From positions 1 through 33,443 of the forward strand of contig NZ_FOTI01000032.1 of assembly GCF_900114545.1 (NCBI RefSeq): 33,443 nt of DNA, read 5' to 3'. The position numbers and the translations under genes were made by a program. Positions 238-23,896 of this stretch are shown here, one piece after another (the stretch's first letter is position 1; every line of letters starts with the position of its first letter). The notes beneath the pieces are model-generated. The model saw nothing but the letters and a program-made list of their open reading frames with translations, had not been told where the DNA came from and searched no databases. This DNA is from Halanaerobium salsuginis. GTDB taxonomy: Bacteria; Bacillota; Halanaerobiia; Halanaerobiales; Halanaerobiaceae.

Positions 238-250
238 TTTTTACGTAATC

Positions 251-312: not shown

Positions 313-363
313 CTTTGAGTTTTTGCTATTTTAAAAAATGGGGAAACTACTTCTTATTGAGTA

Positions 364-479: not shown

Positions 480-484
480 TTTAT
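436..484 (+). repeat. attL core (tRNA side)
   Basis: This is the left copy of the 49-bp att core. It covers the anticodon loop to just past the CCA. Identity with the right copy stops abruptly at both ends. Confidence 0.85.
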
Positions 485-548: not shown

Positions 549-567
549 CCACCGTGATTTCACCGCA
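549..567 (+). repeat. End motif 1 (left copy), candidate integrase arm site
   Basis: CCACCGTGATTTCACCGCA occurs here and, identically and in the same orientation, at 23497-23515. A 19-bp exact repeat about 65-140 bp from each att core is what arm-type binding sites of an integrase with an arm-binding N-domain would look like. Confidence 0.55.
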
Positions 568-2692: not shown

Positions 2693-2968
2693 ATGAAAGA
2701 TACTAAAACAGATCTGATAATTTATTTTAAGAATGCCGTAAAAGAACAAATCGACTTTGACTTTGAGCAGATACCTTTTTCTTTAGGTGTAAGCGACTTA
2801 AAAGAGCTTTTGCCTCTATCTGATTCTAAAATTTATATGATGCTGGAAGCAGGAGAAATTCCTGCAAGAAAGATGGGAGGTAAATGGACAGTCTCAAGAG
2901 CAGAGTTCCTTGCTTGGTTTTACGGATCTGAAGAAGATCTAGATTTGGAAGAACAGGTAATCGTTTAA
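2693..2968 (+). CDS. Excisionase/AlpA-type helix-turn-helix protein
   Basis: This 91-residue protein has an excisionase-family (HTH_17, MerR-like winged helix) domain spanning about residues 27-80. It includes the motif LLPLSDSKIYMMLEAGEIPARKMGGKW, here split as LSDSKIYMMLEAGEIPA followed by RKMGGKW, and ends in AEFLAWF. Such proteins act as recombination directionality factors or as activators in mobile elements. It is the first rightward gene after the strong promoter at 2585-2613, with AGGAGG 7 bases before ATG, opposite the repressor. That position supports an Xis-like role. A terminator follows at 3059-3092. The exact biochemical role cannot be decided from sequence. Confidence 0.75.
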   Translation: MKDTKTDLIIYFKNAVKEQIDFDFEQIPFSLGVSDLKELLPLSDSKIYMMLEAGEIPARKMGGKWTVSRAEFLAWFYGSEEDLDLEEQVIV

Positions 2969-3373: not shown

Positions 3374-3547
3374 GTGAAAGTAGACAAAATCTTAAAGTTA
3401 AAGAAATCTAAACTCAGTAACATTCAAATACTTAGTTTGCTTAAAGAAGATATATTCCAGAGCAGAAAGAAAGATGACACAAATAACGGAGGTAATAATA
3501 ATGACAGTGACAGCTCAAAATCTCAGAACTACCATGAAAAAGAATGA
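3374..3547 (+). CDS. Small ORF overlapping the start of the initiator gene
   Basis: A 57-codon frame starts at GTG 3374 with AAGGAGG about 10 bases upstream and ends at TGA 3547, inside the first codons of the initiator gene. The product is basic at its N-terminus (VKVDKILKLKKSKLSNIQIL) and very rich in Asn, Asp and Ser afterward. It has no recognised domain. Its good SD and its overlap with rep in another frame suggest translational coupling. It may simply be a leader peptide. Confidence 0.45.
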   Translation: MKVDKILKLKKSKLSNIQILSLLKEDIFQSRKKDDTNNGGNNNDSDSSKSQNYHEKE

Positions 3548-6332: not shown

Positions 6333-6878
6333 TTACAGTTCGAATTCTCGCATTGAATCATCCATCAAATCCTGATTTACTCCTATATAATCTAAAGTAA
6401 TACTCGGGGCAGAATGATTAAAAAGCTTCTGCAGCATTGCCACATCTTTATACTGCTGATAATGGTGGTAACCGAAGGTTTTGCGGGTAGAATGGCAGCC
6501 AATGGATTCCAGACCAACTTCTTTACCTACAGAACTTAGCACTCTATATGCCTGACTTCTAGTGATCGGTTTGTTGGTCCCGTTCCTACTCTGAAAGAGG
6601 TACTCATGATCAGCCATGTTTTTAATGTATTGATCTAAAGCATCTCTCAATGCACCATTAATAAAGAACTTCTTTGACTTTTGAGTCTTCTGTTCTTTGA
6701 TCTGGATGTGTGTCTTATTCCTCACATCAGAAACTTTTAGTCTCAGCATGTCTCCAATTCTAAGGCCAGTATTAATTCCGAGCACAAAAAGCAGATAATT
6801 TCTGTAATTATCCATCAGCAATAAACGTTTAATCTCCTCAATCAATTCCTTGTCTCTGATCGGTTCAACTTTTTTCAT
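6333..6878 (-). CDS. Minimal tyrosine recombinase (catalytic domain only)
   Basis: At 181 residues this is about half the length of a normal integrase and has no core-binding N-domain. The active-site set is complete: Arg in GLRIGDMLRL, Lys in EQKTQKSKKF, the HxxR box in CHSTRKTFGYH, His in LFNHSAPS and Tyr in LDYIGV. Such short XerC/D-like enzymes are found in Firmicutes plasmids and phages, where they may resolve multimers or invert DNA. The start has GGGG 8 bases upstream. An internal copy of the island end motif lies just upstream of the gene start (6976-7008), suggesting that it once marked the edge of a smaller element. Confidence 0.8.
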   Translation of the reverse strand: MKKVEPIRDKELIEEIKRLLLMDNYRNYLLFVLGINTGLRIGDMLRLKVSDVRNKTHIQIKEQKTQKSKKFFINGALRDALDQYIKNMADHEYLFQSRNGTNKPITRSQAYRVLSSVGKEVGLESIGCHSTRKTFGYHHYQQYKDVAMLQKLFNHSAPSITLDYIGVNQDLMDDSMREFEL

Positions 6879-7052: not shown

Positions 7053-9515
7053 TTAGTTTAGGTAATCACCCACCACATATTTCAATTTTTCTTTCTTAAT
7101 CTTTAATTGATCCTGGATCTTTTTAATTTCTTTAAAAACTTCCATAATATCTTCTACGTCTTCTTTTAGAAAGGCATCTGGAATTTGTAATTGTTTTAAA
7201 TATTTTAAACTGAAATTTTTTCTTATAGAGCCAGTAGCTAGTACATCAATATAAAGTTTATAAAATGGATGCTTAAAAATACTTAGTAAGTATTCATTAT
7301 TTAGTCCATTTTTTGTTTCAAAAACATTATATGCTGGACTTACTAAATAATCATCATATTCATCTGGAACGATTCCTATAGAGCCTACATTTATTCTATA
7401 TGGATTATAAACTATATCTCCTGCCTTCACTTTTTTATATTTTTGATTAAATTCACTACCATAAACCTCGAATTTTTTAGGATCATCTTCATCTAAAATA
7501 ACCCCATGAGAATTAGTAACACTTAGTATCGAAAATAGCTCTTCAGGTTTATCTGTAGGATCAATTCTAACAGATCTTACTTTTATATATTCTTTTAAAG
7601 GTACTCGTGAAAAATCCTTATTATTTAAAATGTCTAAAAACCAGTAATACCTTGAATCAAATCTATTACTAACCTTTGATTTATGAATCAAAAAATTATT
7701 GCTATCAAATTGATATCTAAAAACATCTTCTTCATTATCTAGATTAGGTTTGCCCTTATAGTACTTTAATATTCTATCCAAATCATTCTCACCTGGGATT
7801 GACTTACCTTTAGAGTCATAACCGATATTTTCTGCAACTCCCATGTAAATATAATAATCATTAAAATTATCTTTTAATTTTTTCAACTCGTCCTTTATCT
7901 TTTTATCTTGTACTTTTTTTAGTTCATCTTCTAATCTTTCTTTTTCCTTAAAATAATCTTCTGGTAATTTTTCAACAACCAATATACTCGAGTTTATTGT
8001 TTGAACACCACTTTGTCTGAATGTATAATTTGGTAATGAAATGATTGCCTTAATTATTGTGTTTTCCTCTATAAAATCCCTAACACCTTTTAAACTTTTA
8101 CTACCTAAAATTGAATCAGGGATTACTATTGCTAAAGTCCCTTCTGGCCTTAAATATTTTATTGACTTTTCAATAAATAAACATTCAGTTAAATTTTTAA
8201 CGTCACTTAATTCGTATTTATTCAGTATGTCATCATTTTCCTCTTTGCTGCCAAAAGGGGGATTAGCTAAAATTACATCAATTCCATTTTCTTCAAAAGG
8301 ATATTCAATATTTGATTTAGTTTTATTATCTAAACCATTACCTCTATATACTCTTTCTCCATCTCCCCACATTATCATATTCATCTTTGCGGTTTTAGCA
8401 GCTCTGGGTTCAGCATCTATTCCTAAAATATTATTTTTCTTAATTGTTTCTATATAAGCTTCCTTAGTTGTATTAAATTGACTAAAATAACTTTTAGGAG
8501 TCTTATCAATGATATCCATTATTTTATTAAATGCACCAATCAAAAATCCCCCTGTACCACAAGCAGGATCTAAAACTACATCATCAATTTTAAAATCAAC
8601 TAATTTAACCATGAAATTAACTATTTTTCTTGGAGTAAAAAATTGACCTAAACCTTTACCTCTAAACGTAGATGATAAGAATATCTCAAAAGCTTTACCT
8701 TTTATATCAAAGGGCAAATCTAAAATGTTAAATCCATCAAGACGCTTCAAAATCCGTTCGATTGCTTCAATACTTAACCCAATACTCTCATTTTGATCTT
8801 CGAAAACCTTAGGAAAAGATTCTTTCGTCTCATTAAAAGTATTTTCAATAAAGGTTTTTTCTCTATCTACCTCTTTTTGCTCCACAAATTTTTCATAACT
8901 AAATCTTACATTTCCTGTCCGCTTAGTGTACTTTTCTTCGTGAATTTTCATAAACAATAACTTACTCCATGCATCAAATGCACCTGTTGGATCAAGCTTA
9001 TCAATGTTTCTAATATCCTGATGAATTTTCTTCAATACTTTTGCAAAATCATCGCTTTGTCTATCTATCATTTTTTTTGAAATAGCTTCTTCTTCTGATT
9101 TCTCCATTTTAGAAGAATCTGTTAAAATTTCTTTTATTGAATCTATATCAATGTTTTCAACTCTATCTTTAACTAGATTGATTCTCTTATTACCAGCTAG
9201 ATAAGCCCTTAATATAAACTTCTTACCATTACTTATAAACCCATATTTTGACTTTAAACCATAAGCATATGAGTCTAGCTGTTCAATATAATCTTCAATT
9301 TTTTTTGTTGGTTTTTTAGATTCGACTACTAATACAGGCTCATTATACTCATCATATATAACCACATCTGCTTCCTTTGTAACTTTTTCATGTCCTTGGC
9401 TAAAAGTAACAGGCACTTTATATCTAAAGTAGTCAGTATCATAACCCAATTGTGTTAAAATCGGTGTAATCACTTTATATTCCACATCTGATTCTGAAAC
9501 TATCTTCTCACTCAT
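7053..9515 (-). CDS. Single-chain restriction-modification enzyme (nuclease + N6-adenine methylase + specificity domain)
   Basis: This 820-residue protein appears to combine all R-M functions (numbering below from ATG 9515). An N-terminal HsdR_N-like PD-(D/E)xK nuclease region has D50 (EADVVIY) and E65-x-K67 (VVESKK). The HsdM-like methylase has motif I DPACGTGGF at about 316-324 and motif IV NPPF at about 418-421. The C-terminal 180 residues look like one target-recognition domain plus a coiled end (IKKIQDQLKIKKEKL). No separate hsdS or helicase is present, so it resembles a type IIG-like enzyme built from type I parts. The ATG at 9515 has GGGAGGA 8 bases upstream; an earlier TTG has no SD. 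It has its own promoter at 9584-9612. A methylase-only role is possible. Confidence 0.8.
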   Translation of the reverse strand: MSEKIVSESDVEYKVITPILTQLGYDTDYFRYKVPVTFSQGHEKVTKEADVVIYDEYNEPVLVVESKKPTKKIEDYIEQLDSYAYGLKSKYGFISNGKKFILRAYLAGNKRINLVKDRVENIDIDSIKEILTDSSKMEKSEEEAISKKMIDRQSDDFAKVLKKIHQDIRNIDKLDPTGAFDAWSKLLFMKIHEEKYTKRTGNVRFSYEKFVEQKEVDREKTFIENTFNETKESFPKVFEDQNESIGLSIEAIERILKRLDGFNILDLPFDIKGKAFEIFLSSTFRGKGLGQFFTPRKIVNFMVKLVDFKIDDVVLDPACGTGGFLIGAFNKIMDIIDKTPKSYFSQFNTTKEAYIETIKKNNILGIDAEPRAAKTAKMNMIMWGDGERVYRGNGLDNKTKSNIEYPFEENGIDVILANPPFGSKEENDDILNKYELSDVKNLTECLFIEKSIKYLRPEGTLAIVIPDSILGSKSLKGVRDFIEENTIIKAIISLPNYTFRQSGVQTINSSILVVEKLPEDYFKEKERLEDELKKVQDKKIKDELKKLKDNFNDYYIYMGVAENIGYDSKGKSIPGENDLDRILKYYKGKPNLDNEEDVFRYQFDSNNFLIHKSKVSNRFDSRYYWFLDILNNKDFSRVPLKEYIKVRSVRIDPTDKPEELFSILSVTNSHGVILDEDDPKKFEVYGSEFNQKYKKVKAGDIVYNPYRINVGSIGIVPDEYDDYLVSPAYNVFETKNGLNNEYLLSIFKHPFYKLYIDVLATGSIRKNFSLKYLKQLQIPDAFLKEDVEDIMEVFKEIKKIQDQLKIKKEKLKYVVGDYLN

Positions 9516-9583
9516 CTCCAACATTCCTCCCAATATCCATAAATTATTTTCATATTCTTTTACTAAAAACTAAACTTATGTTT

Positions 9584-9664: not shown

Positions 9665-9943
9665 TCATCTTCTCTTATTCCAATCAGGAATCATAATCTT
9701 CTGATTAACTCTGATCATTGTCTCAATCTCATTGACCTTTTTAATGGCTGCTACAATAAGCCGCGGGTCAAGGTCAGAGTTAATCTCTTCTGCTATCTCC
9801 CAGAGGGTATCACCTCGCTTTATCACATAAACTTCATTCCAGCTGTAACTATCAATAATATCATCTGGACCTGTCTGAGCTAGAATTGCAGCTGTCAAAA
9901 ACATTACTGCCATCAATACAGAAGCCACGGTTAGTTTATTCAC
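9665..9943 (-). CDS. Membrane-anchored LysM protein, YneA-like
   Basis: This 92-residue protein has an N-terminal TM segment (about residues 5-23, VASVLMAVMFLTAAILA) followed by one LysM peptidoglycan-binding domain (about 38-87, VYVIKRGDTLWEIAEEIN ... VNQKIMIPDW). Size and layout match YneA, the SOS-induced division inhibitor of Bacillus. It overlaps the recT stop by 4 bases (ATGA), so it is translationally coupled to recT. A LysM protein tied to a recombination gene suggests division arrest during element replication or DNA damage; that role is inferred. It could instead be a generic wall-associated protein. Confidence 0.7.
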   Translation of the reverse strand: MNKLTVASVLMAVMFLTAAILAQTGPDDIIDSYSWNEVYVIKRGDTLWEIAEEINSDLDPRLIVAAIKKVNEIETMIRVNQKIMIPDWNKRR

Positions 9944-10833
9944 GAGATTTCCTTCCTTTCCTGAGCACTTAACCTGCTGAATGTATTTAAGATGGACTTC
10001 AGCTGCTCAAACTGGTCTTTAGTCAAGCTGTTGATCGATATCTTCTTGCTGCTGTCTATACCTTTTTCTCTTTTTACATGTCTGAGGTAATTATAAAGAT
10101 CCTCTTTCAGCTTAGGATCATCACCAACTATTTCTTTGATAGCAAGCTCTCTTTCAGTCAGAGAGGTAACTTGATCGTTTTTCAAAGTTTCATCTTTCTG
10201 AGCCATACCTTTATTCTTCTTGCCCTGTACCTGGCTAAATGGAATATCATCAAAATTATAATCACTCTGCTGCTGTACAGCCATTTCTTCCCTGGAAACA
10301 AGCCCAGAAACACTAAAAGCTCTCTTTAAAGCCATTGATTCAGCTACTTTAAGAATCATAGCTGAAGGATACTGCTTCCAGACCTTAGTATCTGATCTGT
10401 ATTCTTCAAAGGTAGCAAAGACATAAACGGGATAGCTTCTGTCCTTTCTATAAACCAAAGCGTAACTACCGACAATCTGTCGGCGGTTGGTCCCATATTG
10501 ATGATTAATTCCAGTTTCTTTTCGTCTAAACTTATCATTTTCTCTAACTACATCTGAAACCAGCCCATCATACTGGGGATGCCTATCAGCTATCTTTAGA
10601 TAACCATCCCTGGAAGTCATAATTGTTGGCTTTCCATCTTTCTTCCAGAAGAATATCTCTTTATTGAAAGGATCAAGTCCATAGTTTTTAGCCAGATAGA
10701 TAAACATCTTAAACTCATCACTGCTTGCATCTCCGGCAACAGTTCGTCTGAGGGTTTCTAACTCCTCTTCAGTAAAAGTAATCAGTTCTTTTTTCTTTCT
10801 GTTAATATCAACAACTTTACTCTTTGCACTCAT
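9940..10833 (-). CDS. recT: RecT/Bet-type single-strand annealing recombinase
   Basis: This 297-residue protein matches the RecT/Bet family in its first 210 residues: FKMFIYLAKNYGLDPFNKEIFF, TSRDGYLKIADRHPQYDGLVSD, then VGSYALVYRKDRSYPVYV, and ILKVAESMALKRAF. The C-terminal tail (about 215-297) is variable and charged. RecT anneals complementary single strands in phage recombination and repair. No RecE/Exo exonuclease partner is found, so it may work with host nucleases. GGGAGG precedes ATG. A hairpin and the palindrome CCTTAAATTAAGG sit directly upstream, leaving no space for a separate promoter. It belongs to the leftward run that includes radC and the mini genes. Confidence 0.9.
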   Translation of the reverse strand: MSAKSKVVDINRKKKELITFTEEELETLRRTVAGDASSDEFKMFIYLAKNYGLDPFNKEIFFWKKDGKPTIMTSRDGYLKIADRHPQYDGLVSDVVRENDKFRRKETGINHQYGTNRRQIVGSYALVYRKDRSYPVYVFATFEEYRSDTKVWKQYPSAMILKVAESMALKRAFSVSGLVSREEMAVQQQSDYNFDDIPFSQVQGKKNKGMAQKDETLKNDQVTSLTERELAIKEIVGDDPKLKEDLYNYLRHVKREKGIDSSKKISINSLTKDQFEQLKSILNTFSRLSAQERKEIS

Positions 10834-12696: not shown

Positions 12697-13383
12697 CTAA
12701 AGATCTTCAAAAACAAGGTGTAAATTACTATATCTATTTAAGGAGTTACTTCCCTGCTTAATAAACTCCCAAGTTTCTTCATATTCACCTTCGACAGCAA
12801 AACTATCCTTTCTAATAAAATCTAAAAACTCTAATTCCCTTTCAAAATAGCTATCACTAAATTCTTCAGCTTTATCTACTTTTTGATTATCATCAACATT
12901 TGCATCATTGTGAAGTACATGCTCTAAATTACAGGATAGGTAGTAAGCATTATATGGAATCCCATTTATTTTAGAATGCCTACTCAGTCTATCCATGATG
13001 CTGCTTTTTTTATCATTTCTTTTCTTTGTGTTTTCAGGATGTCTGGTACATAACTTATCAACATAATAGTAATTCTTATCTTTATCATGTTTTTCGATCA
13101 AACCTTCACTGATATATGCTCCGTCAGTATCCAATAAATGAATAATTTCTAAAATATCCCCTTTATTATAATGTTCTTTGTCCAAAAACGATAATACTTC
13201 TTCATTGATTACTTCTATCACATTACGAGAATTAACTCCATTCCTGGTAGTTATATCTCCACGAGCAATTTGAAATTCAATCTCTTTATCCTCAAATATC
13301 TCAGAAAAAATAAGACCAAAAGATATTTCCTCCGTTATACCTTCTACTAAGAATAGAATTAATTTTCTAGTCATCAGCATCAA
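12697..13383 (-). CDS. TOPRIM-like nuclease partner of the AAA ATPase
   Basis: This 228-residue protein begins with a TOPRIM-type pattern: a strand ending in the acidic motif FLVEGITEE (E14, E18) and a second acidic motif LLDTDGAY (D85, D87). That matches the fold used by OLD-family nucleases, RloB/AbiLii and DUF4435 proteins. The rest is charged, including NTKKRNDKKSSIMDRL and CNLEHVLHND. It overlaps the ATPase stop by 17 bases, so the two are translationally coupled. Two-gene ATPase/TOPRIM modules (AbiL, RloAB, PARIS-type) are known anti-phage systems. The subtype is not resolved here. The ATG at 13374 is an alternative start. Confidence 0.65.
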   Translation of the reverse strand: MMLMTRKLILFLVEGITEEISFGLIFSEIFEDKEIEFQIARGDITTRNGVNSRNVIEVINEEVLSFLDKEHYNKGDILEIIHLLDTDGAYISEGLIEKHDKDKNYYYVDKLCTRHPENTKKRNDKKSSIMDRLSRHSKINGIPYNAYYLSCNLEHVLHNDANVDDNQKVDKAEEFSDSYFERELEFLDFIRKDSFAVEGEYEETWEFIKQGSNSLNRYSNLHLVFEDL

Positions 13384-14755
13384 CTCTACCAGCAGCCCTA
13401 AAAGCTCTGGCTATTTTGTATTCATTTGTTCTCTCATAAACTTCCTCGTCCTGTCCACCTAACTTAATTCCACGATAATAGAAACTTCTTAGATTATTGG
13501 TTTCCTTAACATTGGTGAATCTAATATATCGATTCTGAGGATTAGTAGTTGTAAAAATAAGTGACTCTTTATTAAGTTTCTCCAGTGGTCTTAGATTATG
13601 AGAAGTAAAGACCAGCTGTCCCTTGGCTCTATCCTGAATGATCTCCAGAATTTCACCTAAAAGATATTCAAATATACCAGCATCAAGCTCATCAACAGCC
13701 AGACAAATACCCGTCTTATTGTACATCGCAATCATTGCACTCAAGATAGATATGATCTTTTTAATACCATCTGATTCATATCTAAGAGGAATCTTAATCT
13801 CTCCTCTTTCTGCCAGCAGCTCTATTTTTATTACTGGATCACCGTTCTTATCCAATTCTTCTCCATACTCTTTAATTTTAATTGTTAGCTCTGGAATTAT
13901 CTCTTTTAAGACGATATTTAAGTTCTCGATAACATTTTTGACAGTAGAGAGGACCCTCTCAGGAACTGTTGTCGGCTCAGACAGAGCTATTGCCAGATCT
14001 CCACCTTCTATTCTCTCTGAATCACTGAATTGAAAACAAAAAGGTATAATTAGATTGGCATTGATCATACCTGAACGAGAATTTCTGATCACAAACAGGT
14101 TCATTCGAGCATACTGTTTGATCTCCATTATAATATCAGCAAATTCGCTAAAGGCTTTATTACCCTTATAAATATGATCCATCTCACTAGAAAAAATAAA
14201 AGAGGTTTGTTCCTTCTTCGCAAGCTCCTTGGCTACTTTAAGGTCCACTTTAGCATCTTTATTGTTTTTAGTGAGCAAATTGTAATTCTTCTGGGGACTT
14301 AACAACTGCTCCTTCTCATCAAGGTTGTGAGTTATTATCCCTCTCTTATATGTCCAGTCATCTTCTTCAAGCTTTTTATATGATAGATCTTCTTTGATAA
14401 TTACTGGAACAGCATTTTCTCTTCTTTCAATTACCATTTCATAAAAGAGTTGGTATTTGTCTTCTCCCAAAGACATAGAAAAAACAGCATCAATAGCAGC
14501 TTCTTTCTCGCCCTGGTATATATAATCTTTAATATCTCCAGGCAGAGATTCTCCAAGCAAGACCAGTTTCAGTATCCACAAAGCTTCAATAAAAGCAGTT
14601 TTACCAGAACCATTCTGGCCGTATATTCCCAGCACATCTGATGTTTCAGAAAAAAAGTCTTCGCTTTTATAACTGTTGAAATCAATCTGACCCTGCCTAA
14701 CATTCTTAAAGTTATTCAGTTGTACCTGCTGCAGACGCAGCATTCTCTCCTTCAT
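13367..14755 (-). CDS. AAA15/OLD-like ABC-type ATPase of a two-gene defence module
   Basis: This is a 462-residue ATPase. Walker A is GQNGSGKT at residues 46-53. Walker B is CLAVDELDAG at about 351-360, preceded by a signature-like ESDGIKKIISIL. The switch His lies in FTSHNLRPL. The insertion between the motifs is typical of SMC/OLD-like AAA15/AAA21 proteins. The ATG at 14755 has GGAGG 7 bases upstream; the longer frame starts in the promoter. It is the first gene of a two-gene operon with the TOPRIM-like protein, under the promoter at 14777-14805. It probably senses phage DNA or proteins and controls the nuclease partner; that is inferred from the family. Confidence 0.8.
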   Translation of the reverse strand: MKERMLRLQQVQLNNFKNVRQGQIDFNSYKSEDFFSETSDVLGIYGQNGSGKTAFIEALWILKLVLLGESLPGDIKDYIYQGEKEAAIDAVFSMSLGEDKYQLFYEMVIERRENAVPVIIKEDLSYKKLEEDDWTYKRGIITHNLDEKEQLLSPQKNYNLLTKNNKDAKVDLKVAKELAKKEQTSFIFSSEMDHIYKGNKAFSEFADIIMEIKQYARMNLFVIRNSRSGMINANLIIPFCFQFSDSERIEGGDLAIALSEPTTVPERVLSTVKNVIENLNIVLKEIIPELTIKIKEYGEELDKNGDPVIKIELLAERGEIKIPLRYESDGIKKIISILSAMIAMYNKTGICLAVDELDAGIFEYLLGEILEIIQDRAKGQLVFTSHNLRPLEKLNKESLIFTTTNPQNRYIRFTNVKETNNLRSFYYRGIKLGGQDEEVYERTNEYKIARAFRAAGRVDADD

Positions 14756-14776
14756 TTGATCACCTCCACTGATTAA

Positions 14777-14805
14777 ATTATACAACTATTAGTAGTAAAA
14801 AGCAA
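14777..14805 (-). promoter_or_regulatory. Promoter of the ATPase/TOPRIM operon
   Basis: On the minus strand there is TTGCTT (14800-14805), a 17-bp spacer and TATAAT (14777-14782), about 20 bases before ATG. Confidence 0.6.
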
Positions 14806-15340: not shown

Positions 15341-15401
15341 ATACAAAATAAAAGCCCCAGAAAAGCTCCATTGTTACTGAACAAATGAAATCTCTCTGGG
15401 G
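15341..15401 (-). terminator. Terminator of the K+ operon (hairpin A)
   Basis: CCCCAG...CTGGGG (15355-15401) forms a long imperfect stem, followed on the minus strand by CTTTTATTTTG. About 80 bp here (15349-15432) is clearly similar to 23402-23496 on the other side of the operon, including the tail AGATGCTAATTTTATT. Confidence 0.7.
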
Positions 15402-15504
15402 TAATTAAGATGCTAATTTTATTTGATTTTCTATTATCAACTGCTTACGTTTAATCGTACTTAATCTAAATATTGTAATCCCTAAATTCCTATATAAAAC
15501 TACA

Positions 15505-16986
15505 TTAATGCTTAGAAATATAAACTCCGTCTTTAAATAGTTTTATCCCGGCATAAAGAATTATAAAGAATTCAAGCCTGCCTAAAAACATTCCGATCGT
15601 CTGGGTCCAGATTATACCCAGAGGTGATTCTGGTGAAAGTAAGCCAATAGAAATTCCAACTGTACCAAGAGCTGATCCAAATTCAAACATACTATCTAAA
15701 AGAGAATATCCATAGGCTGTATGGACTGCTACTCCTGCAAAAAAAGTAAACAAGTATAGTAATATATAGTTAGCTACATCTTTTACATGCTGATCTTTTA
15801 CATAAAACTTATTCTCTCCCCGCCAGAGATAATTGCTGCTGACACTTCTGCGAGGTAAAAACTGTTCTTTAATTTCCCAGTAGATTGATTTAAAAATCAA
15901 ATAGATTCTATACTGCTTAATACCACCAGCAGTTGAACCTGTTCCACCACCAACAAGCATAATTACTATAATGATAAAGTTAGCAAATATCGGCCAGCCG
16001 GCAAAAGAAATCGTCGAAAAACCGGTTGTTGATAAAGCTGTAATGATCTGGAAAAAGGTAATTCTAAAATTCTCGCTTAGCATAGGGTATAAAGAGTTTA
16101 ATGAAAAAAACATTAATATAGGAGTTAAAAATATAAATAGAGTTATCATTAAACGTATCTCAGCATTTTTAAAGAATGTTTTAACCTTACCTTTAAGCAG
16201 TGTGTAATGAGTTGCAAAGTTTATTGTACCAAGCAGCATTAAGACAATTGTCACCACTTCAATAGATAAACTGTTGTAATGGCCGATGCTGTCAGGCTGA
16301 GTGGAAAAACCTCCAGTAGAAATTGCAGCCATCGAGTGATTTATGGAATCAAAGAGCGGCATCCCTGCAAAATAATAGAGAATAATCCCTGCTGCAGTAT
16401 AGAAAGTATAGATTTTCATGATCAACATGGTAGAGCGTTTTACATGGGGTAATAATTTATCACTTCTTGCCTCAGCCATATATAATCCCATTCCATGAAC
16501 CGGAAGCAGTGAAGATAAAGCAATTACTGCCAGGCCAGCTCCACCGAAAAACTGCATAATCGAGCGCCAGATCAGGATTAATTTCGGGGCAGTAGTCACA
16601 TCCACAAGCGATAAACCGGTAGTTGTCCAACCACTTACTACTTCAAAAATAGAATGGCTCCAGCTCATATCTAAAATAGTTATAAAAGGTATTGCAGAGA
16701 AGAAGATTGCCCCAAGCCAGGAGAAGATAACAATTATACTACCTTCATTTAATGATAATTCCACATCTTCTTCCTGATGTCTGCGCCCATAAACATATAA
16801 AACTAGTCCTGCCAGGATAGATAATCCTCCCGCCAGCAAAAAATGAGGTGCCAGGCTGCTTTCTTCGGGAAAAGCAAGTAAAAATAAAAGCGGTGATAAA
16901 ATAGCAGTTCCAGCAAAGATAATTATAATCCCGGTATATTTTGAAATCAGAAAGTAACGAGAGATAAGCAGATTTTTATATTTCAT
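15505..16986 (-). CDS. trkH: TrkH-type K+ uptake channel subunit
   Basis: This 493-residue integral membrane protein is the K+-translocating subunit of a Trk system. It has four pore-loop repeats with filter Gly residues: GWTTTGLS, AISTGGFST, ALSTTGFST and ALGTVGISIG. The conserved GGGTGSTAGGIK stretch precedes the M2C-type loop. The length and many TM segments match TrkH. The ATG at 16986 lies two bases after the trkA stop, so translation is coupled. A TTG at 17004 would also be in frame but is less likely. It is the last gene of the eight-gene operon and is partnered by the RCK protein encoded immediately upstream. Confidence 0.92.
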   Translation of the reverse strand: MKYKNLLISRYFLISKYTGIIIIFAGTAILSPLLFLLAFPEESSLAPHFLLAGGLSILAGLVLYVYGRRHQEEDVELSLNEGSIIVIFSWLGAIFFSAIPFITILDMSWSHSIFEVVSGWTTTGLSLVDVTTAPKLILIWRSIMQFFGGAGLAVIALSSLLPVHGMGLYMAEARSDKLLPHVKRSTMLIMKIYTFYTAAGIILYYFAGMPLFDSINHSMAAISTGGFSTQPDSIGHYNSLSIEVVTIVLMLLGTINFATHYTLLKGKVKTFFKNAEIRLMITLFIFLTPILMFFSLNSLYPMLSENFRITFFQIITALSTTGFSTISFAGWPIFANFIIIVIMLVGGGTGSTAGGIKQYRIYLIFKSIYWEIKEQFLPRRSVSSNYLWRGENKFYVKDQHVKDVANYILLYLFTFFAGVAVHTAYGYSLLDSMFEFGSALGTVGISIGLLSPESPLGIIWTQTIGMFLGRLEFFIILYAGIKLFKDGVYISKH

Positions 16987-16987
16987 C

Positions 16988-17650
16988 TTATTCTTCACCA
17001 CCAAAGACTTTAATAGCTTCTGCCTGTTCTTCGGGCAGTGAAATTATGACAATTTTATCTCCTGCCTGAATCTTAGACCCACCTCTAGGAATTGAAATAT
17101 CTCCATTTCTAACTATACCACCTAAAACAATAGAAATAGGAAGGTCAATTTCTTTAATTTCCTTGCCAGCAGCTGCAGAGTCAGGTGCTACCTCAACCTG
17201 GAAGATACTTAGTTTCCCCTCTTCAATCATGGTTAAATTACTTACATCTTCTGAAATCACACTCTGCTCAATAATTGAACTAATCAAATCTGTAACATTA
17301 AAGATCCCCGTAATCCCCAAAATATTGAAAAGTTCTTCATTTTCTGGATTATTTACTAGAGCTGTAGTTCTCTCAACTCCAAAGTAGTCCATTGCCATTT
17401 TGCAGATAAAGAGATTACTGTGGTCCTTTTGCGTCAAAGATACAAGGTTATCAGCCTTATAGGCGCCAGCATCCTCCAGAACTTTTTTATCTGCTGCATC
17501 ACCAAAAACAACTGTAGCCTTTATTTCTCTTGCCAGATCATCAGCAAGTTTTCGATCTTTATTGATAATTGTTACAAAATGTCCTTTAGAAATTAGCTTT
17601 TTGGCAAGATGATAAATTAACTTACCTCCCCCAACAAGTATAATTTCCAT
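16988..17650 (-). CDS. trkA: TrkA-type RCK protein (N + C domains)
   Basis: This 220-residue cytoplasmic gating subunit has an RCK_N Rossmann domain (1-125, MEIILVGGGKLIYHLAKKL). The dinucleotide-binding acidic residue normally at the end of strand 2 is replaced by Asn (IINKDRKL). The RCK_C domain (about 140-220) ends ... GGSKIQAGDKIVIISL. It contains one RCK_N/RCK_C pair, whereas the classical TrkA of enterics has two. It sits directly before trkH and two bases after the RCK_N-only gene, so together the two may form the ring. GAGG precedes ATG. Confidence 0.88.
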   Translation of the reverse strand: MEIILVGGGKLIYHLAKKLISKGHFVTIINKDRKLADDLAREIKATVVFGDAADKKVLEDAGAYKADNLVSLTQKDHSNLFICKMAMDYFGVERTTALVNNPENEELFNILGITGIFNVTDLISSIIEQSVISEDVSNLTMIEEGKLSIFQVEVAPDSAAAGKEIKEIDLPISIVLGGIVRNGDISIPRGGSKIQAGDKIVIISLPEEQAEAIKVFGGEE

Positions 17651-17652
17651 AA

Positions 17653-18066
17653 TTACCTCATCCCTTCTCGCTCAATTTTATTTATCATGTTTTCAGCCAA
17701 AAGAGATATCTGAGAAAATATCTCAAAGCGTTCTTCTTTTTCATACATTTTCTCTACTGCCGGATCTATGGTTCTAACCATAATTCTTGGTACATCGAAA
17801 TTAACCCTTGCCATCTGTGATACAAGATAGTTAATCTGATCATTTCCAGTACTAACTATTAAAAGGTCAGCTGATTCTATTTTACCTTCAAGTAAAATAT
17901 CACTTTCAGCTGCATCCCCCTCTATTTCAAAACCTGAAAAGTCAACCGGCAGCAGAGCAAATGATTCTGGATTCTTTTCTATAACTACAACTTCATTACC
18001 AGAACGAGAAAGCTTTCCTGCAAGTAGTGACCCGGTGCGGCCGCAGCCAACAATAACAATAAACAT
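17653..18066 (-). CDS. RCK_N-only TrkA-like protein
   Basis: This 137-residue protein is a single nucleotide-binding RCK_N domain. It begins VIVGCGRTGSLLAGKLSRSG (GxGxxG intact), followed by VVIEKNP and the Asp in EGDAAESD. The RCK_C domain is missing; the tail is a charged helix (ENMINKIEREGMR). The start codon follows the receiver/TPR gene stop without a gap. It may assemble with the adjacent full TrkA to make a hetero-ring around TrkH, or bind NAD(H) as a sensor. The split into short and full RCK genes is unusual and may be a family feature. Confidence 0.85.
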   Translation of the reverse strand: MFIVIVGCGRTGSLLAGKLSRSGNEVVVIEKNPESFALLPVDFSGFEIEGDAAESDILLEGKIESADLLIVSTGNDQINYLVSQMARVNFDVPRIMVRTIDPAVEKMYEKEERFEIFSQISLLAENMINKIEREGMR

Positions 18067-18762
18067 CTATTCTTCCTCCTCGTCATCTCCAAAATTAACA
18101 TCATCTAAGTCAATCGAACCCATACTTTCTCCTGCTCTTTCGATATTTTCATTTGCCGGCTTATAGCCAGGATCAAGTGCCAGAGCAGCTCTGTACATCT
18201 TCATTGCTTCTCCCTGCTTATGCTGCATCTCATAAATAATACCGAGCAGGTTAAATGGTTCAGGTTTTTCAGAGTCAAGAGAAGTGGCCTGCTGCAGCAT
18301 TTCTTTTGCCTTTGAGAAGTCTCGTTTATTAATTGCGTTTTTAGCAAGCATAATATATTCTTCAAAACTTTCTACTTCTTTTTCACTATTTTCAACCTTA
18401 TAGCGTTCAAAAACATCCTGAACAATATTAATAATTTCTTCTGGCTTAAATGGTTTACGCAGATAATCAACAGCCCCTAACTTTAGAGTTTCAACTGCTG
18501 TTTCTACACTACCATATCCTGTAATCATTATTACTTTTGTCTCAATTTCTTTATTTGTTACTTCTTTTAAAAACTGGATACCATCCATTCCCGGCATTTT
18601 CATATCAAGCAGTACAACCGGGATTTCTTCTTCTTTTAATTTTGCCAGTCCATCCTCTCCATTAACAGCTGTTTCAACTTCATAGTCTGCATTCGAAAGA
18701 GCTTTCTTTAAAGTCAAACGAATATTCTTTTCATCATCAACAACCAGTACTTTATTTTTCAT
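18067..18762 (-). CDS. Response-regulator receiver with TPR tail, no DNA-binding domain
   Basis: This 231-residue protein has a REC domain (1-122): acidic pocket D9-D10, phospho-acceptor D53 (VVLLDMKMPGMDG), Thr in MITGYG and Lys in LRKPF. Residues about 130-205 form tetratricopeptide repeats (AKNAINKRDFSKAKEMLQQA; LLGIIYEMQHKQGEAMKMYR), followed by an acidic tail. Lacking an HTH, it should act by protein contact, perhaps on the K+ channel or RCK proteins. It overlaps the preceding receiver gene by 11 bases with GGAGG inside that gene. The gene pair appears bound to the kinase upstream. Confidence 0.9.
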   Translation of the reverse strand: MKNKVLVVDDEKNIRLTLKKALSNADYEVETAVNGEDGLAKLKEEEIPVVLLDMKMPGMDGIQFLKEVTNKEIETKVIMITGYGSVETAVETLKLGAVDYLRKPFKPEEIINIVQDVFERYKVENSEKEVESFEEYIMLAKNAINKRDFSKAKEMLQQATSLDSEKPEPFNLLGIIYEMQHKQGEAMKMYRAALALDPGYKPANENIERAGESMGSIDLDDVNFGDDEEEE

Positions 18763-19165
18763 TATTATCTTCCTCCTCTATTTCTTCCTGTCCTGTTCCT
18801 GCTTCCATAATACTTTCTTCTACAGCAGCCAGTAAATCACTCTGGCTGATTGGTTTGACTAAAAAGTCTTCAGCACCTGAAGAAATTGCCTTTTGCACAT
18901 CATCTTCTTCAGATAAAGCAGACAATATAATAACCGGTATTTCCTCTGTAGCTGCATCACTTTTTAAAGCTTCAAGTACTAAAAAACCATTCATCTTCGG
19001 CAGCCTTAAATCAAGTAAAATAAGATCTGGACTAATATTATTAGCTTTATCAACCGCTTCTACTCCATCTACAGCATAATCCACAGCATAACCTGCCTTT
19101 TCCAGACTTTTACCAACAACTAATCTAATATTTTTTTCATCATCTACTACTAAAATTTTACTCAT
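18752..19165 (-). CDS. Single-domain response regulator
   Basis: This is a 137-residue stand-alone receiver. D8-D9 form the acidic pocket, D52 is the phosphorylation site (LILLDLRLP), S82 is at the switch Thr position and K104 lies in FLVKP. A short acidic tail (EEIEEEDNNEK) follows and there is no output domain. The start at 19165 is set by AGGAGG 7 bases upstream; the upstream open frame lies inside the kinase gene. It overlaps the kinase stop by 8 bases. It may be a phosphate sink or relay between kinase and the TPR regulator, or act directly on transport proteins. Confidence 0.9.
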   Translation of the reverse strand: MSKILVVDDEKNIRLVVGKSLEKAGYAVDYAVDGVEAVDKANNISPDLILLDLRLPKMNGFLVLEALKSDAATEEIPVIILSALSEEDDVQKAISSGAEDFLVKPISQSDLLAAVEESIMEAGTGQEEIEEEDNNEK

Positions 19166-20984
19166 TATTTTCCTCCTGATAGCCATATCTTGGGATGTAG
19201 AATGAAAAAGTAGAGCCCTCTCCTTCTTCACTTTCAACCCAGATCCGACCATTGTGGGCTGTAATAATTTCTTTTGCAATAGCAAGGCCGAGACCGGTTC
19301 CACTCTTTTCCTCTTTATCACTGCCGGCTCTGACAAATTTCTCGAATATTTTAGACTGATATTCTTTTGGAATACCTGGTCCATTATCTGCTACTGATAC
19401 TAGAACCCTTCTACCCTTTATTTCTGCATCTACTTCTATTTTTCCTTCATCAGCATAGCGAAGTGCATTTCCAACCAGGTTAGAAATCACCCAGCTTATT
19501 TTTGAAGGATCGGCATAAGCAAAAACATTATCTTCTGACTGTTTGAATTTGAGCTCAATTTCTTTTTCCTCCGCCTGTTTATGGAAGGGGTTAAGAGTTT
19601 TTTCAATAATATCATTGACATCTACCTTATCAAATTCCATTTCAATTTTACCTGATTCAATCTTAGAGAGATCAAGCAGATCATTTACTAACTCAGTTAA
19701 TCGTTCAACATCCTCATAGGCTGCTTCCAGCAGTTCCTTCTGTTCCTCATTTAATTCTCCTGTATCCTCGTTAATTACCATGCTGAGCCCCATATTCATT
19801 GAAGTCAGCGGGGTCCTAAACTCATGTGATACAGTTGAAACAAACTCAGATTTCATATTGTCAATTTCTTTTAAGCGGGTAATATCCTCTAATAGAGTAA
19901 CTGTAAATTGATATTCTTCATCTTCATCAATTACCTGTTTGGTTGAAATCCTGTAATGTCTTTTTTTATCGTTCTTTTTTAGTAGAAAGGTTTTCTCTTC
20001 TTTAGCTTCAGGATTTTTAATGTATTCAAAAATCTCTTCTGCCTTAATAACCTCTAAAAAGTGCGTGCCAAGTACATCCTCCCTCAGTGAAAATAGTTCT
20101 TTAGCTGTTTCGTTGATTAAAACAATCTTATGATCCTTATCTGTCACTATTAAGGGACTGCTCAAATTATTTACTACAGCTTCTGACTTTTCTTTCTCCA
20201 TCAGCAGCTTTTTAACATTTAATTTTTCATATTCTTTTAGTTTGGAAATCATCTCATTAAATTCATCTGCCAGCACACCGATTTCATCTTCAGAGGCCAC
20301 TTCAACTTTACGCTGAAAATTTCTAGCAGCCACTTCTTTAATACCTTTTTCTAATTCTTTAATTGGCCTCAATATCTGTTTGGTGAGATAAAAGGCAAAA
20401 ATTAATGAAAATGCAGTAACCAGTAAAGCCAGTCCGATTGTATAGATGATTGCCTGATTGGCTCTGCTGTTTGCATCACCCTGGGCATCCACCATTGCCT
20501 GTCTATTTAGTTCTCTTAACTCCCGAATATCAGTTTTGATTTCATTAAATAAAGGCAGTAACTCCTGGTTATAAATCTCCCAGCGCTGATTTTCGTCTGC
20601 ATTATAGAATTGATCAAATTTAGATACAAAACTAAAATACTTTTCATTTATCTTCTCAAGAATTGTGCCTTCACCATCTATTGTAATATTATCTTCTGCT
20701 CTGGCCAGCCAGGTATAAAATTCTTTTTCGTTGCGTCTAAATATTTCCTGTCCCTGTTCTTCAGATGTTCTCAAAAGCAGCAGCAGAGCACTATCCTGAC
20801 GCTCTATTGATTCAACCATACTGTCACTGGCTTTAATGCTGCGGTAGTTTTCTACTAAGATATCATTGATCGCATTTGATAGAGATTCAAAGTTATAAAT
20901 ACTCCAGCCAACAACTCCAGCCAAAATTAAGATCATAACTGCAAAACCAAGGAGCATTTTACCTTTTAAAGTTTTAATCTTCAT
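19158..20984 (-). CDS. Membrane sensor histidine kinase (HAMP-PAS-HisKA-HATPase)
   Basis: This is a 608-residue kinase (numbers from the ATG at 20984). TM1 spans about 10-28. An extracytoplasmic helical region of about 150 residues resembles the four-helix-bundle sensors of chemoreceptors. TM2 is about 178-200. HAMP is about 200-253, PAS about 265-365, and HisKA has phospho-accepting H387 (STVSHEFRTPLTS). The ATPase has the N box (NLVGNALRYAD), DNGPGIP and GTGLGLAI. GGAG is 10 bases before ATG. It lies in a K+ operon with two output-less receivers, so it may sense turgor, membrane or ionic conditions. The signal is not known. Confidence 0.92.
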   Translation of the reverse strand: MKIKTLKGKMLLGFAVMILILAGVVGWSIYNFESLSNAINDILVENYRSIKASDSMVESIERQDSALLLLLRTSEEQGQEIFRRNEKEFYTWLARAEDNITIDGEGTILEKINEKYFSFVSKFDQFYNADENQRWEIYNQELLPLFNEIKTDIRELRELNRQAMVDAQGDANSRANQAIIYTIGLALLVTAFSLIFAFYLTKQILRPIKELEKGIKEVAARNFQRKVEVASEDEIGVLADEFNEMISKLKEYEKLNVKKLLMEKEKSEAVVNNLSSPLIVTDKDHKIVLINETAKELFSLREDVLGTHFLEVIKAEEIFEYIKNPEAKEEKTFLLKKNDKKRHYRISTKQVIDEDEEYQFTVTLLEDITRLKEIDNMKSEFVSTVSHEFRTPLTSMNMGLSMVINEDTGELNEEQKELLEAAYEDVERLTELVNDLLDLSKIESGKIEMEFDKVDVNDIIEKTLNPFHKQAEEKEIELKFKQSEDNVFAYADPSKISWVISNLVGNALRYADEGKIEVDAEIKGRRVLVSVADNGPGIPKEYQSKIFEKFVRAGSDKEEKSGTGLGLAIAKEIITAHNGRIWVESEEGEGSTFSFYIPRYGYQEENNE

Positions 20985-21066
20985 ATTTTTCACACTCCTG
21001 AAATTATATCTTTCATTTATTTTTGTTGTAATTCATACTTTTTAGAAGTCCATAGAAGCTAAAGGT

Positions 21067-21720
21067 TTAATTACCAAAGTCACGCATTTTATCAAGATTC
21101 TCGTTTTTACCCATTAAAACCAGCTTATCTCCACTTTCAATCTTATCCTCAGCACCAGGAGAAATATGAATATTTTCTCCCCGCTTGATTGCCATTACAT
21201 TAACATCGAAACTGGCTCTTAATTCAAGTTCTTTTAAAGACTTTCCTGTCATTTTGTCAGTTGCCAGCAGCTCTATCACTCCATATTCGGGAGCAAATTC
21301 TATATAGTCTAATACATTGGAAGAGATAAGATTCTGAGCAATTCTTGCCCCCATATCACGCTCTGGATAAACAATTCTATCTGCTCCAACTTTTGTTAAA
21401 ACTTTGCCGTGTAATTTATCAGGTGCCTTTACAATTACATACGGTAAACTTAATTCCTTTAAAATTAAAGTACACAATATATTTGCTGAAACATTATCTC
21501 CAATGCTAACAACTGCCACATCAAAGTTTCTAACTCCCAGAGTTTTTAAAGCTTCTTCATCAGTAGCATCAGCTTCTACTGCATGAGTTACATCAGCACT
21601 GATTGCCTGCACCTTTTCTGGGTCACGGTCAATCGCTAAAACATCATGTCCATTTTCAGCCAGAGTCGTTGCTACACTGGCTCCAAATCTACCCAAACCT
21701 ACTACTACAAACTGCTTCAT
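21067..21720 (-). CDS. ktrA: KtrA-type RCK K+ channel regulator
   Basis: This 217-residue RCK protein has an RCK_N domain (MKQFVVVGLGRFGASVATTL; acidic D30 in AIDRDPEK) and an RCK_C domain from about 135 (VIELLATDKMTGKSLKELEL ... GDKLVLMGKN). KtrA rings gate KtrB with ATP/ADP, and RCK_C of Firmicutes KtrA/KtrC binds cyclic di-AMP. That gives post-translational control in addition to the riboswitch. It follows ktrB by 21 bp with GGAGG before ATG. Family assignment as KtrA rather than TrkA rests on the neighbour gene and size. Confidence 0.9.
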   Translation of the reverse strand: MKQFVVVGLGRFGASVATTLAENGHDVLAIDRDPEKVQAISADVTHAVEADATDEEALKTLGVRNFDVAVVSIGDNVSANILCTLILKELSLPYVIVKAPDKLHGKVLTKVGADRIVYPERDMGARIAQNLISSNVLDYIEFAPEYGVIELLATDKMTGKSLKELELRASFDVNVMAIKRGENIHISPGAEDKIESGDKLVLMGKNENLDKMRDFGN

Positions 21721-21741
21721 TTATTTGTCCTCCTATCAAAA

Positions 21742-23064
21742 TTAACCGACCATTACTTTTTCTGCTGGATAATGATATTTTCCTTTTCTTACTCTTTCGC
21801 CAAAGGCAAGTGCCAGGGTTAGTGGACCAACTCTACCAGCAAACATAGTAATTGTAATTAAAACTCTGCTGATATCAGATAGCTGACCGGTAATTCCTGT
21901 TGAAAGTCCCACTGTACCGAAGGCGGATACTGTCTCAAACAAAACATCTATAAATTGAAAGTCTTCGATCACTAATAAAAGCGTAGTTACTAAGACAACA
22001 AGGCCGGCAGCCAGCATTGTAATAGTAAAAGCCTCATAGACAATCTTTTTTTCAAAGCGGCGGTTATATACTTCCATATCTTCTTTACCTGTTATCATGT
22101 TTTTTAAGGTAACAAGCATCACTCCAAAAGTAGTTGTCTTAATACCTCCACCGGTCGAGCCGGGTGAAGCACCAATAAACATTAAGATAATGATAATAAA
22201 GAGTGAAGACTGTTTTAAAGCTCCGGTTGCAACTGTATTAAAACCTGCTGTTCTTGGTGTTACAGATAAAAACATTGCCCCCAGTGTTTTATCGAGAAGT
22301 GGTAAACCAGCAAGAGTATTATCATACTCTAAAACAAAAAATACTATAAAACCAAAAATTAAAAGAGCTAATGTTATGACGAGAACTATTTTAGTCTGCA
22401 GAGTTGATTTTTTAAACCTGACTCTATTATAAGCTTCGACCATAACTCCAAAACCTATACCACCGAGAATAATTAAGGCCATAATCACAAAGTTAATTGT
22501 TATGTCACCAGTAAAGTTTTCCAGGCTATTTCCAAAAAGATCAAAACCAGCATTATTAAAGGCAGATACAGCGTGGAAAATAGCCAGATAAATTGCCCTC
22601 CCTGCAGGATAATCCTCAACCAGACGGAAAAATAAGATAACTGCAGCAGTTCCCTCAATTGCAAAGGTAAAGCCAAGCAGATACTGAACCAGTCTCACCA
22701 TACCTGAAATCTGATACTGATTTAAATCTTCCTGAATAATTAATCTTTCTTTTAAACTAATCTTTTTCCCAATTATAAAGGCAAATAAGGTAGACATTGA
22801 CATGATACCTAATCCACCAATTTGGATCAAAAGCATAATAACTGTTGAACCAAAATGAGTAAAGGCTTCTTTAGTATTAACAACAATTAAACCTGTCACA
22901 CAGGTGGCAGATGTGGCTGTAAATACTGCATCTACTGCATTTAAGCCCTGCCCATCTGTTGTCGCTATCGGCAGCATTAAAAGTATTGAACCCAGCATGA
23001 TAATAATAAAATAACCAAAAACTAAGTACTGTGCTGGGGTTAAATTTTTCTTGCTGATCTTCAT
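21742..23064 (-). CDS. ktrB: KtrB-type K+ transporter channel subunit
   Basis: This 440-residue membrane protein has four selectivity-filter segments: ATCVTGLIV, FNNAGFDLF, PRTAGFNTV and FGTVGLSTG. The conserved region GASPGSTGGGIKTTTFG supplies the intramembrane gate loop of Ktr/Trk proteins. The length fits KtrB. The ATG at 23064 is chosen since AGGAG lies 8 bases upstream; the TTG at 23082 overlaps the SD. It is the first gene of the riboswitch-controlled operon, followed by ktrA, so KtrAB would be the first-translated K+ system and TrkAH the last. Confidence 0.92.
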   Translation of the reverse strand: MKISKKNLTPAQYLVFGYFIIIMLGSILLMLPIATTDGQGLNAVDAVFTATSATCVTGLIVVNTKEAFTHFGSTVIMLLIQIGGLGIMSMSTLFAFIIGKKISLKERLIIQEDLNQYQISGMVRLVQYLLGFTFAIEGTAAVILFFRLVEDYPAGRAIYLAIFHAVSAFNNAGFDLFGNSLENFTGDITINFVIMALIILGGIGFGVMVEAYNRVRFKKSTLQTKIVLVITLALLIFGFIVFFVLEYDNTLAGLPLLDKTLGAMFLSVTPRTAGFNTVATGALKQSSLFIIIILMFIGASPGSTGGGIKTTTFGVMLVTLKNMITGKEDMEVYNRRFEKKIVYEAFTITMLAAGLVVLVTTLLLVIEDFQFIDVLFETVSAFGTVGLSTGITGQLSDISRVLITITMFAGRVGPLTLALAFGERVRKGKYHYPAEKVMVG

Positions 23065-23123
23065 TCTCCCTACTCCTCTCAAAACAAATCTATGTATTTA
23101 TTAAATAAATCAAAACTCTATAA

Positions 23124-23155
23124 AATCAAAAAAACACTACAGATAGACTGTAGTG
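23124..23155 (-). terminator. Riboswitch expression platform: intrinsic terminator
   Basis: On the minus strand CACTACAG/CTGTAGTG (23135-23155, 8-bp perfect stem, 5-base loop) is followed by TTTTTTTGATTTT. It lies between the riboswitch and ktrB, so it is the off-switch. Confidence 0.85.
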
Positions 23156-23170
23156 CCAATAGATAAATTT

Positions 23171-23330
23171 CACCATAATATAGAATATAATGGTGGCATC
23201 ACGTCTGTCCCTTATTTAAAGTCTACGGAGTTAGCTGTCGGGCTAGAAGTAAAGGTCTTCTTCTAATATAGATTCGCCCCAAAAATTGGGTCCCCCGCTC
23301 TCAGATGAGATTAGACAACAGAATTATTTT
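23171..23330 (-). ncRNA. ydaO-yuaA: Cyclic di-AMP riboswitch (ydaO/yuaA type)
   Basis: Read on the minus strand, the leader has the conserved ydaO blocks in order: ATTCTGTTGTC near the 5' side, GCGGGGGACCCAATTTTTGG, then GGCGAATCTAT, and GCCCGACAGCTAACTCCGTAG. These are the pieces that build the two c-di-AMP pockets. A further hairpin CACCATTATAT/ATATTATGGTG (23171-23195) and the terminator at 23124-23155 follow. The family turns genes off when c-di-AMP is high, that is, when K+ is abundant; that fits K+ uptake genes downstream. Exact edges are approximate. Confidence 0.88.
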
Positions 23331-23339
23331 CTTTCCTAT

Positions 23340-23368
23340 ATTAAAACACATTATAAATATTTTGTCAA
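23340..23368 (-). promoter_or_regulatory. Promoter of the K+ operon
   Basis: On the minus strand there is TTGACA (23363-23368), a 17-bp spacer and TTTAAT (23340-23345). This puts the transcript start a few bases before the riboswitch. Confidence 0.75.
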
Positions 23369-23401
23369 ATAAGTGATAAAAATAATTTCTTCCGAAGTAA
23401 C

Positions 23402-23496
23402 AAAAACCCCCAGAAAACTCCATCAATAACTGAACAAAATGAAGTTTCTCTGAGGGTAAATAATCTCCAATTGAGATGCTAATTTTATTCGATTTT
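23402..23496 (-). terminator. Orphan terminator hairpin B, duplicate of the operon terminator
   Basis: CCCTCAGAGAAACTTCAT and ATGGAGTTTTCTGGGGG (23407-23456) form a long stem followed on the minus strand by TTTTTG. The segment is similar over about 85 bp to hairpin A at 15349-15432. No gene precedes it on this strand, so its terminator role has no obvious client other than insulating the K+ operon from the right. Confidence 0.65.
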
Positions 23497-23515
23497 CCAC
23501 CGTGATTTCACCGCA
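23497..23515 (+). repeat. End motif 1 (right copy), candidate integrase arm site
   Basis: Identical to 549-567 (19 bp, same orientation). A degenerate further copy, CCACCGTTAAATACCGCA, follows at 23527-23544. Confidence 0.55.
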
Positions 23516-23594
23516 GTGAGCCTCAGCCACCGTTAAATACCGCAGTAAAATATACAGTATTTTACAACTATATGGGATATTTCCAACACTAGAT

Positions 23595-23616
23595 TGCTGT
23601 TATGACAGGGATTATA
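23595..23616 (+). repeat. End motif 2 (right, imperfect copy)
   Basis: TGCTGTTATGACAGGGATTA resembles TGCTATAACAGCGATTATA at the left end (491-509). Confidence 0.35.
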
Positions 23617-23652
23617 AGAAAAGATACTAATATACGGAACTTCGACAAAACT

Positions 23653-23701
23653 CTCCGAAGCCTTGAGCGTAGGTTCGACTCCTACCGGGGGCACCATTTA
23701 T
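23653..23701 (+). repeat. attR core (tRNA-Arg 3' fragment)
   Basis: This perfect 49-bp copy of the tRNA-Arg 3' half runs from the anticodon loop to just past the CCA. The preceding bases do not form a tRNA 5' half. It marks the right end of the island and is the displaced original tRNA end. Confidence 0.88.
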
Positions 23702-23896
23702 TTACATATAAACTTTACTTTATATTAACTGAATATTCTTTAATCTTCAATTTTGCTGCTTAATTTATTAATCCTAGCTTAGTTAATGTTTGAAAAGCTA
23801 AATTTTATAATATATAATTTACCTAAAATCAAAGTTAGCTCTTAAATTCAAAGCATCATTTTTCTTTATATAATATATAGTTCATTTCTATTAGAG

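Follow-up and report, generated by a model that had tools for sequence, protein, structure and literature searches.

c-di-AMP riboswitches ahead of potassium uptake genes have been described in Bacillus. In Bacillus subtilis, an RF00379 aptamer precedes the ktrAB (yuaA) genes and switches them off by termination, and KtrA is itself a target of the same messenger (PMC5573677, PMC7288161). c-di-AMP causes termination at both the ktrAB and kimA riboswitches of this organism, and for ktrAB it is textbook knowledge that the messenger acts on both the RNA and the protein (PMC5573677). In B. thuringiensis, c-di-AMP likewise promotes termination at the riboswitch of the kdpFABC operon, which also pairs an aptamer with an intrinsic terminator in front of a K+ uptake system (PMC6488665).

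The locus described here was found in Halanaerobium salsuginis, on a stretch of 33,443 nucleotides (the window, contig NZ_FOTI01000032.1). For those halophiles of this order that balance salt with internal K+, its uptake is a central process. As in B. subtilis, an RF00379 aptamer stands before ktr genes, but here ktrB precedes ktrA, the transcription unit goes on with a histidine kinase, a pair of response regulators and the Trk genes of a second uptake system, and it lies on an island at a tRNA-Arg gene. In contrast to B. thuringiensis, the kdp riboswitch of this genus comes after trkH as an additional element (seen in the genomes G004 and G003), which is absent from the window. Carriage on mobile DNA is not unique, since RF00379 elements are also found upstream of ktr genes on three Bacillaceae plasmids (Cytobacillus solani F27, Pseudalkalibacillus hwajinpoensis and Peribacillus sp. 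R9-11 pD; 76, 105 and 101 bits). However, the plasmid loci are unrelated to ours in sequence (KtrB <60% identical), and the plasmid stretches examined have no two-component or Trk extension. The element as a whole resembles tRNA-targeted integrative elements and cis-mobilisable tandem islands in its tyrosine integrase beside a tRNA, its att repeats and the tandem att arrays of the relative G005. It differs from them in encoding a rolling-circle Rep, RecT and RadC, and no conjugation genes (relaxase or type IV secretion) were recognised among the island ORFs scanned, a set that covered part of the small ORFs. No such case turned up in the papers searched for c-di-AMP riboswitches together with mobile elements or Halanaerobium, which is weak evidence of absence.

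We consider it very probable that a canonical riboswitch controls this operon by termination, and that the unit lies between att repeats and has moved across species, with a native copy that has decayed in this genome. What distinguishes the locus is how clearly it shows a core operon being captured and passed between species whose proteins are 72% identical, with a relic remaining at the old site. It provides a traceable case of a regulatory RNA transferred together with its regulon while the native copy decays, and makes it testable whether a transferred riboswitch wires at once into the c-di-AMP level of a new host.

The riboswitch upstream of ktrB

Scanning the whole window with Rfam cmscan gave one riboswitch only, a match to RF00379 (c-di-AMP, ydaO/yuaA leader) at 23327–23205 on the minus strand, with a score of 80.2 bits against a gathering cut-off of 38 and an E-value of 2.6e-17. 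The match is complete (model positions 1–134 of 134, not truncated), and the core columns of the aptamer agree with the consensus and are invariant in an alignment of 13 leaders. The initial annotation had proposed a ydaO-type riboswitch upstream of ktrB, and the significant covariance match with the Rfam ydaO-yuaA model bears this out. Judged by its sequence, the element is a canonical member of the RF00379 class, and by analogy with that class the aptamer would bind c-di-AMP.

A promoter can be read from the sequence ahead of the aptamer (23340–23368, minus strand), consisting of TTGACA at 23368–23363, a 17-nt spacer and a TG-extended TTTAAT at 23345–23340, in the arrangement TTGACA-N17-(TGT)TTTAAT. 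It is conserved in relatives, and TTGACA was found in 12 of the 13 ktr/trk leaders from the genus and its family. The promoter scan overlooked TTTAAT because it requires an A at the second position of the −10 box. Between the aptamer and ktrB lies an intrinsic terminator (23157–23133, minus strand), predicted to form a 10-pair hairpin (−13 kcal/mol; z −5.7) followed by seven T. This is the sole terminator-like site in 23050–23500, where shuffled sequences gave 0.2 ± 0.5 such sites, and eight of its pairs are kept in all 11 leaders compared (100%), which come from the genus and a neighbouring genus. The promoter and the clean terminator that had been claimed are therefore present, and the elements do follow each other as promoter, aptamer, terminator and ktrB.

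Computational folding of the leader gave two states. In one, the terminated state, GACAG downstream of the aptamer pairs with the aptamer's 5′ end (CUGUUGUC), and the terminator is formed. In the antiterminated state, which was predicted when the 3′ arm of the terminator was unmade or withheld, ACAGAC..UGCCA (about 23209–23190, minus strand; AGAC.. and UGCCA make up the predicted antiterminator 5′ strand) pairs with UGGCA..GUCU, which corresponds to the 5′ arm and loop of the terminator. Across 11 leaders, the antiterminator was 91.7% paired, versus 29–39% when one strand was slid by 1–3 columns. It includes one compensatory pair (C-G, U-G or U-A); the covariation is modest, since it involves a single pair and shuffles often reach the same counts. 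An antiterminator made of the 3′ strand of aptamer P1 and the terminator loop was also considered and rejected, because pairing by the post-aptamer sequence scored better. Both the terminator and the competing antiterminator are conserved within the genus.

These folds are consistent with a switch of the ordinary terminating (OFF) kind, for which we take the direction of control from the family. At high c-di-AMP, in K+-replete cells, the aptamer would be stabilised with its ends paired, the terminator would form and the operon would be off. At low c-di-AMP, when K+ is poor, the post-aptamer sequence would instead pair with the 5′ arm and loop of the terminator, allowing readthrough by RNA polymerase. 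Two DAC-domain proteins (diadenylate cyclases) are encoded in this genome, as in most relatives, and from this gene content the host can make c-di-AMP. The island copy has two mismatched pairs within its antiterminator, as might be expected if the riboswitch had drifted to an altered ligand, to an inverted (ON) logic or into a non-functional relic. However, the full-length 80-bit match, the invariant aptamer core, the intact promoter and the intact, fully conserved terminator make such drift highly implausible.

The K+ operon and its products

Behind the switch, the minus strand encodes ktrB, ktrA, a histidine kinase, two response regulators, two trkA genes and trkH, in that order. KtrB (21742–23082; NCBIfam TIGR00933 above cut-off) belongs to the TrkH/KtrB superfamily, and its start is probably the ATG at 23064, which has AGGAG ahead of it, rather than the TTG at 23082. 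KtrA (21067–21720) has the RCK_N and RCK_C domains (Pfam TrkA_N and TrkA_C) and KtrA/KtrC relatives in the PDB, so that the two genes together qualify as KtrAB. The sensor histidine kinase (19158–20993) has a 4HB-HAMP-PAS-HisKA-HATPase arrangement by Pfam. It is followed by a receiver-only response regulator (18752–19384), whose true start is probably inside the ORF, as Pfam Response_reg matches residues 77–189, and by a second regulator with a receiver and TPR (18067–18762). The remaining genes, also assigned by Pfam, encode a TrkA_N-only protein (17653–18066), a TrkA-like RCK protein with TrkA_N and TrkA_C (16988–17650) and TrkH (15505–17004), the last in the operon. No DNA-binding domain was recognised by Pfam in either response regulator (18067–19384), and the kinase may thus signal to proteins rather than promoters; its target is possibly the Trk/Ktr system.

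In Staphylococcus aureus KtrA, c-di-AMP is contacted by I163, I164, D167, I168, R169, A170, N175, I176 and P191 (PMC7288161). We aligned the KtrA of the operon with 4xtt, a structure of the S. aureus domain in complex with c-di-AMP. R169, A170 and N175 are identical, four contacts are replaced conservatively (L, E, L and V), and I164 and P191 are replaced by K and A, respectively. Binding of c-di-AMP to this KtrA, and with it a second level of control at the protein, is plausible.

The tRNA-Arg island and interspecies transfer

The left end of the island is at a tRNA-Arg (CCG) gene (405–479, plus strand; ARAGORN, Rfam 72.2 bits), the target of integration, whose 3′ part forms attL. The left copy of the att direct repeat (429–484, plus strand) is 56 nt long and 95% identical to the right copy (23646–23701, plus strand), with 53 of 56 nt identical, including a perfect stretch of 49 nt. 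The right copy, which marks the end of the island, is located beyond the riboswitch. A repeat search also found a 19-nt sequence (CCACCGTGATTTCACCGCA) just inside the left end (549–567, plus strand) and again at the right end (23497–23515, plus strand), and these copies may be arm sites for the integrase. The tyrosine integrase itself (588–1751, minus strand) has arm-binding, SAM-like and catalytic domains (PF00589, PF14659, PF14657; PHROG integrase), and four other genomes have it at the same tRNA with 97–99% identity. Other island genes encode an HTH_17 protein that is probably an excisionase (2693–2968, plus strand; weak match to phrog_66 excisionase), a rolling-circle type replication initiator (3474–4925, plus strand; Pfam REP_ORF2-G2P and PHROGs) and a RecT/Bet-type single-strand annealing protein (9940–10833, minus strand; Pfam RecT, NCBIfam bet_lambda above cut-off). 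RadC, an AAA ATPase pair and a type I-like methylase are also found between the att copies, and the K+ operon adjoins the right end.

A second tyrosine recombinase (6333–6878; 181 aa) has a catalytic domain only and is conserved in the islands of G005 and G010. At 7053–9533, an 826-aa fusion combines HSDR_N, N6 methylase and specificity-like parts, and no restriction gene was seen apart from it; the fusion is absent from the relatives' islands compared. At 12697–14785, an AAA ATPase (AbiLi/AriA-like by PADLOC) and its 228-aa partner, which has no family match, are a candidate two-gene defence system. Window positions 1–352 match DNA close to the K+ operon of G008 with 97% identity, compared to 74% for core DNA, and are probably a mobile repeat, given that the contig ends there.

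The same gene order stands behind the same riboswitch in most genomes of the genus, and related matches are annotated as H. kushneri, H. saccharolyticum, H. congolense and other Halanaerobium. The operon follows CopA and CsoR in G001 and G004, and kdpABC-type genes come after it in G001, G004 and G013, with no integrase nearby; in G001, the island integrase coexists with a native operon at another locus. In G007, G011 and G012, the operon lacks ktrBA, and the switch leads directly into the kinase. Since the riboswitch and its K+ operon are a core feature of the genus at non-island loci, a core operon was captured by the island.

A genus-core operon could be taken as not mobile, a reading ruled out by the identity and tree data. 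Operon DNA is 92.7–94.2% identical to that of G005, G009 and G010, versus 74% in a core region of about 35–36 kb around the topoisomerase gene, and the operon proteins are 98.0–99.0% identical to those of the same three genomes, versus 71–72% for the core over 21 families. In the operon tree, this genome and the three others form one clade with support of 100/100, and the core data reject that clade (p-AU 4.2e-8). A control pair, G001 and G004, showed 88.6% identity in the core and 88.3% in the operon, as expected for vertical descent. On these data, the conclusion holds that the operon has passed from one species of the genus to another as cargo of the island. The transfer bears on the earlier proposal that the island brings its own second-messenger control: the island does carry such control, as the operon's interspecies transfer is real, but the switch is not an island novelty, being core in the genus.

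With the integrase adjoining the tRNA-Arg, the 3′ part of the tRNA repeated at the far end and a distribution that conflicts with the core genes, the stretch has the features of a tRNA-targeted integrative element, in agreement with the mobile island initially proposed. The operon might instead be merely chromosomal, the second att copy being an old relic or a chance repeat and the riboswitch lying off the island. The operon is indeed core in the genus, and in several genomes it is tens of kb or less away from tRNA-Arg. However, chance or age fits poorly with 49 identical nt, and the sequence of the island end (23402–23704) recurs at islands without the operon (G005 at 31.1 kb, G001 on contig C51 and G009 at 401.6 kb). 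The strong conflict of the operon phylogeny with the core and the relic operon at a different locus also argue against a chromosomal location, which we regard as most improbable. The genes on the right flank (ThyA and neighbours) are located elsewhere in relatives, and in G007 the tRNA-Arg is present and a second att copy was not found. A phage origin is not supported, as six viral-contig pattern matches were not RF00379 and no relatives of the integrase were found in viral contigs.

The cargo slot, its hairpins and the relic locus

The operon fills 15410–23398, between two similar terminator-like hairpin repeats. One ends the operon (15350–15435, minus strand; fold z −4.2), and the other (23403–23500, minus strand; fold z −3.6; 76% identical to the first) forms the upstream edge of the slot. 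In the same slot, unit 1 of G005 has a heavy-metal ATPase, as does G001, along with ArsR, BacA, an M23/LysM protein and others. Of 12 genomes, 8 contain the hairpin pattern, for the most part on contigs with tRNA-Arg islands, and none its backwards control, with a mismatch limit that the window's own diverged copies exceed.

On island contig C21 of G005, three att copies (13933, 31119 and 66133) form a tandem array, with the K+ operon in the distal unit. That unit has no integrase of the same family. Copies of the ~60–95-nt hairpin repeat separate the modules in G005, with six pattern matches, five of them on C21.

The island backbone is 94–98% identical to those of G005, G010 and G001. Against G005, the operon is 93.7% and the backbone 95.8% identical, as expected if they arrived together, and we infer that the operon travels in one piece by means of the integrase. 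Only this genome and G005 show the co-mobilisation directly, since the operon of G009 lies outside the att pair found and that of G010 is on a separate contig without att. The placement in G009, together with an operon copy near the same tRNA without att in G011, would also suit ordinary homologous recombination at resident islands or in the DNA beside them, with the integrase moving only the backbone and the operon as a passenger. The slot contents vary between genomes, the similar hairpins could serve as recombination tracts, and the element encodes a RecT/Bet protein. We nevertheless consider this unlikely, because here the operon is inside the att ends with an intact integrase, and the identities of operon and backbone to G005 are similarly high.

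Beyond transfer as island cargo, modules might be exchanged through the hairpin repeats, perhaps by the island's own RecT, although this is conjecture. A broader reading, to which we give slightly less than even weight, is that the riboswitch and K+ operon are one of several modules, each ending in the same hairpin, that are exchanged at a fixed slot in a genus-wide family of tRNA-Arg islands, and that salt-in halophiles trade whole K+ uptake cassettes, self-regulated through c-di-AMP, that replace the native operon.

A second RF00379 match in this genome (contig C97; 71.2 bits) is followed directly by ktrA, with ktrB cleanly absent. It has CsoR and CopA as neighbours, like the full operon of G001 and G004. 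The relic KtrA falls outside the cluster of other riboswitch-linked copies, and the island KtrA nests inside it with those of G009 and G005. Most simply, the native operon would have been reduced to the riboswitch and ktrA once the island copy had arrived, the order of events being the part that we infer.

Two further arrangements were seen in relatives. The second c-di-AMP riboswitch between trkH and kdpA, at 19516–19645 of contig C22 in G004 and on contig C55 in G003 (locus 205–333), has a different terminator/antiterminator sequence. In G011, a divergent K+ operon without ktrBA (contig C2, about 90459–96317) separates two genes that lie side by side in G007; it is some 3.4 kb away from the same tRNA-Arg, has no att repeat and apparently got there by an independent relocation.
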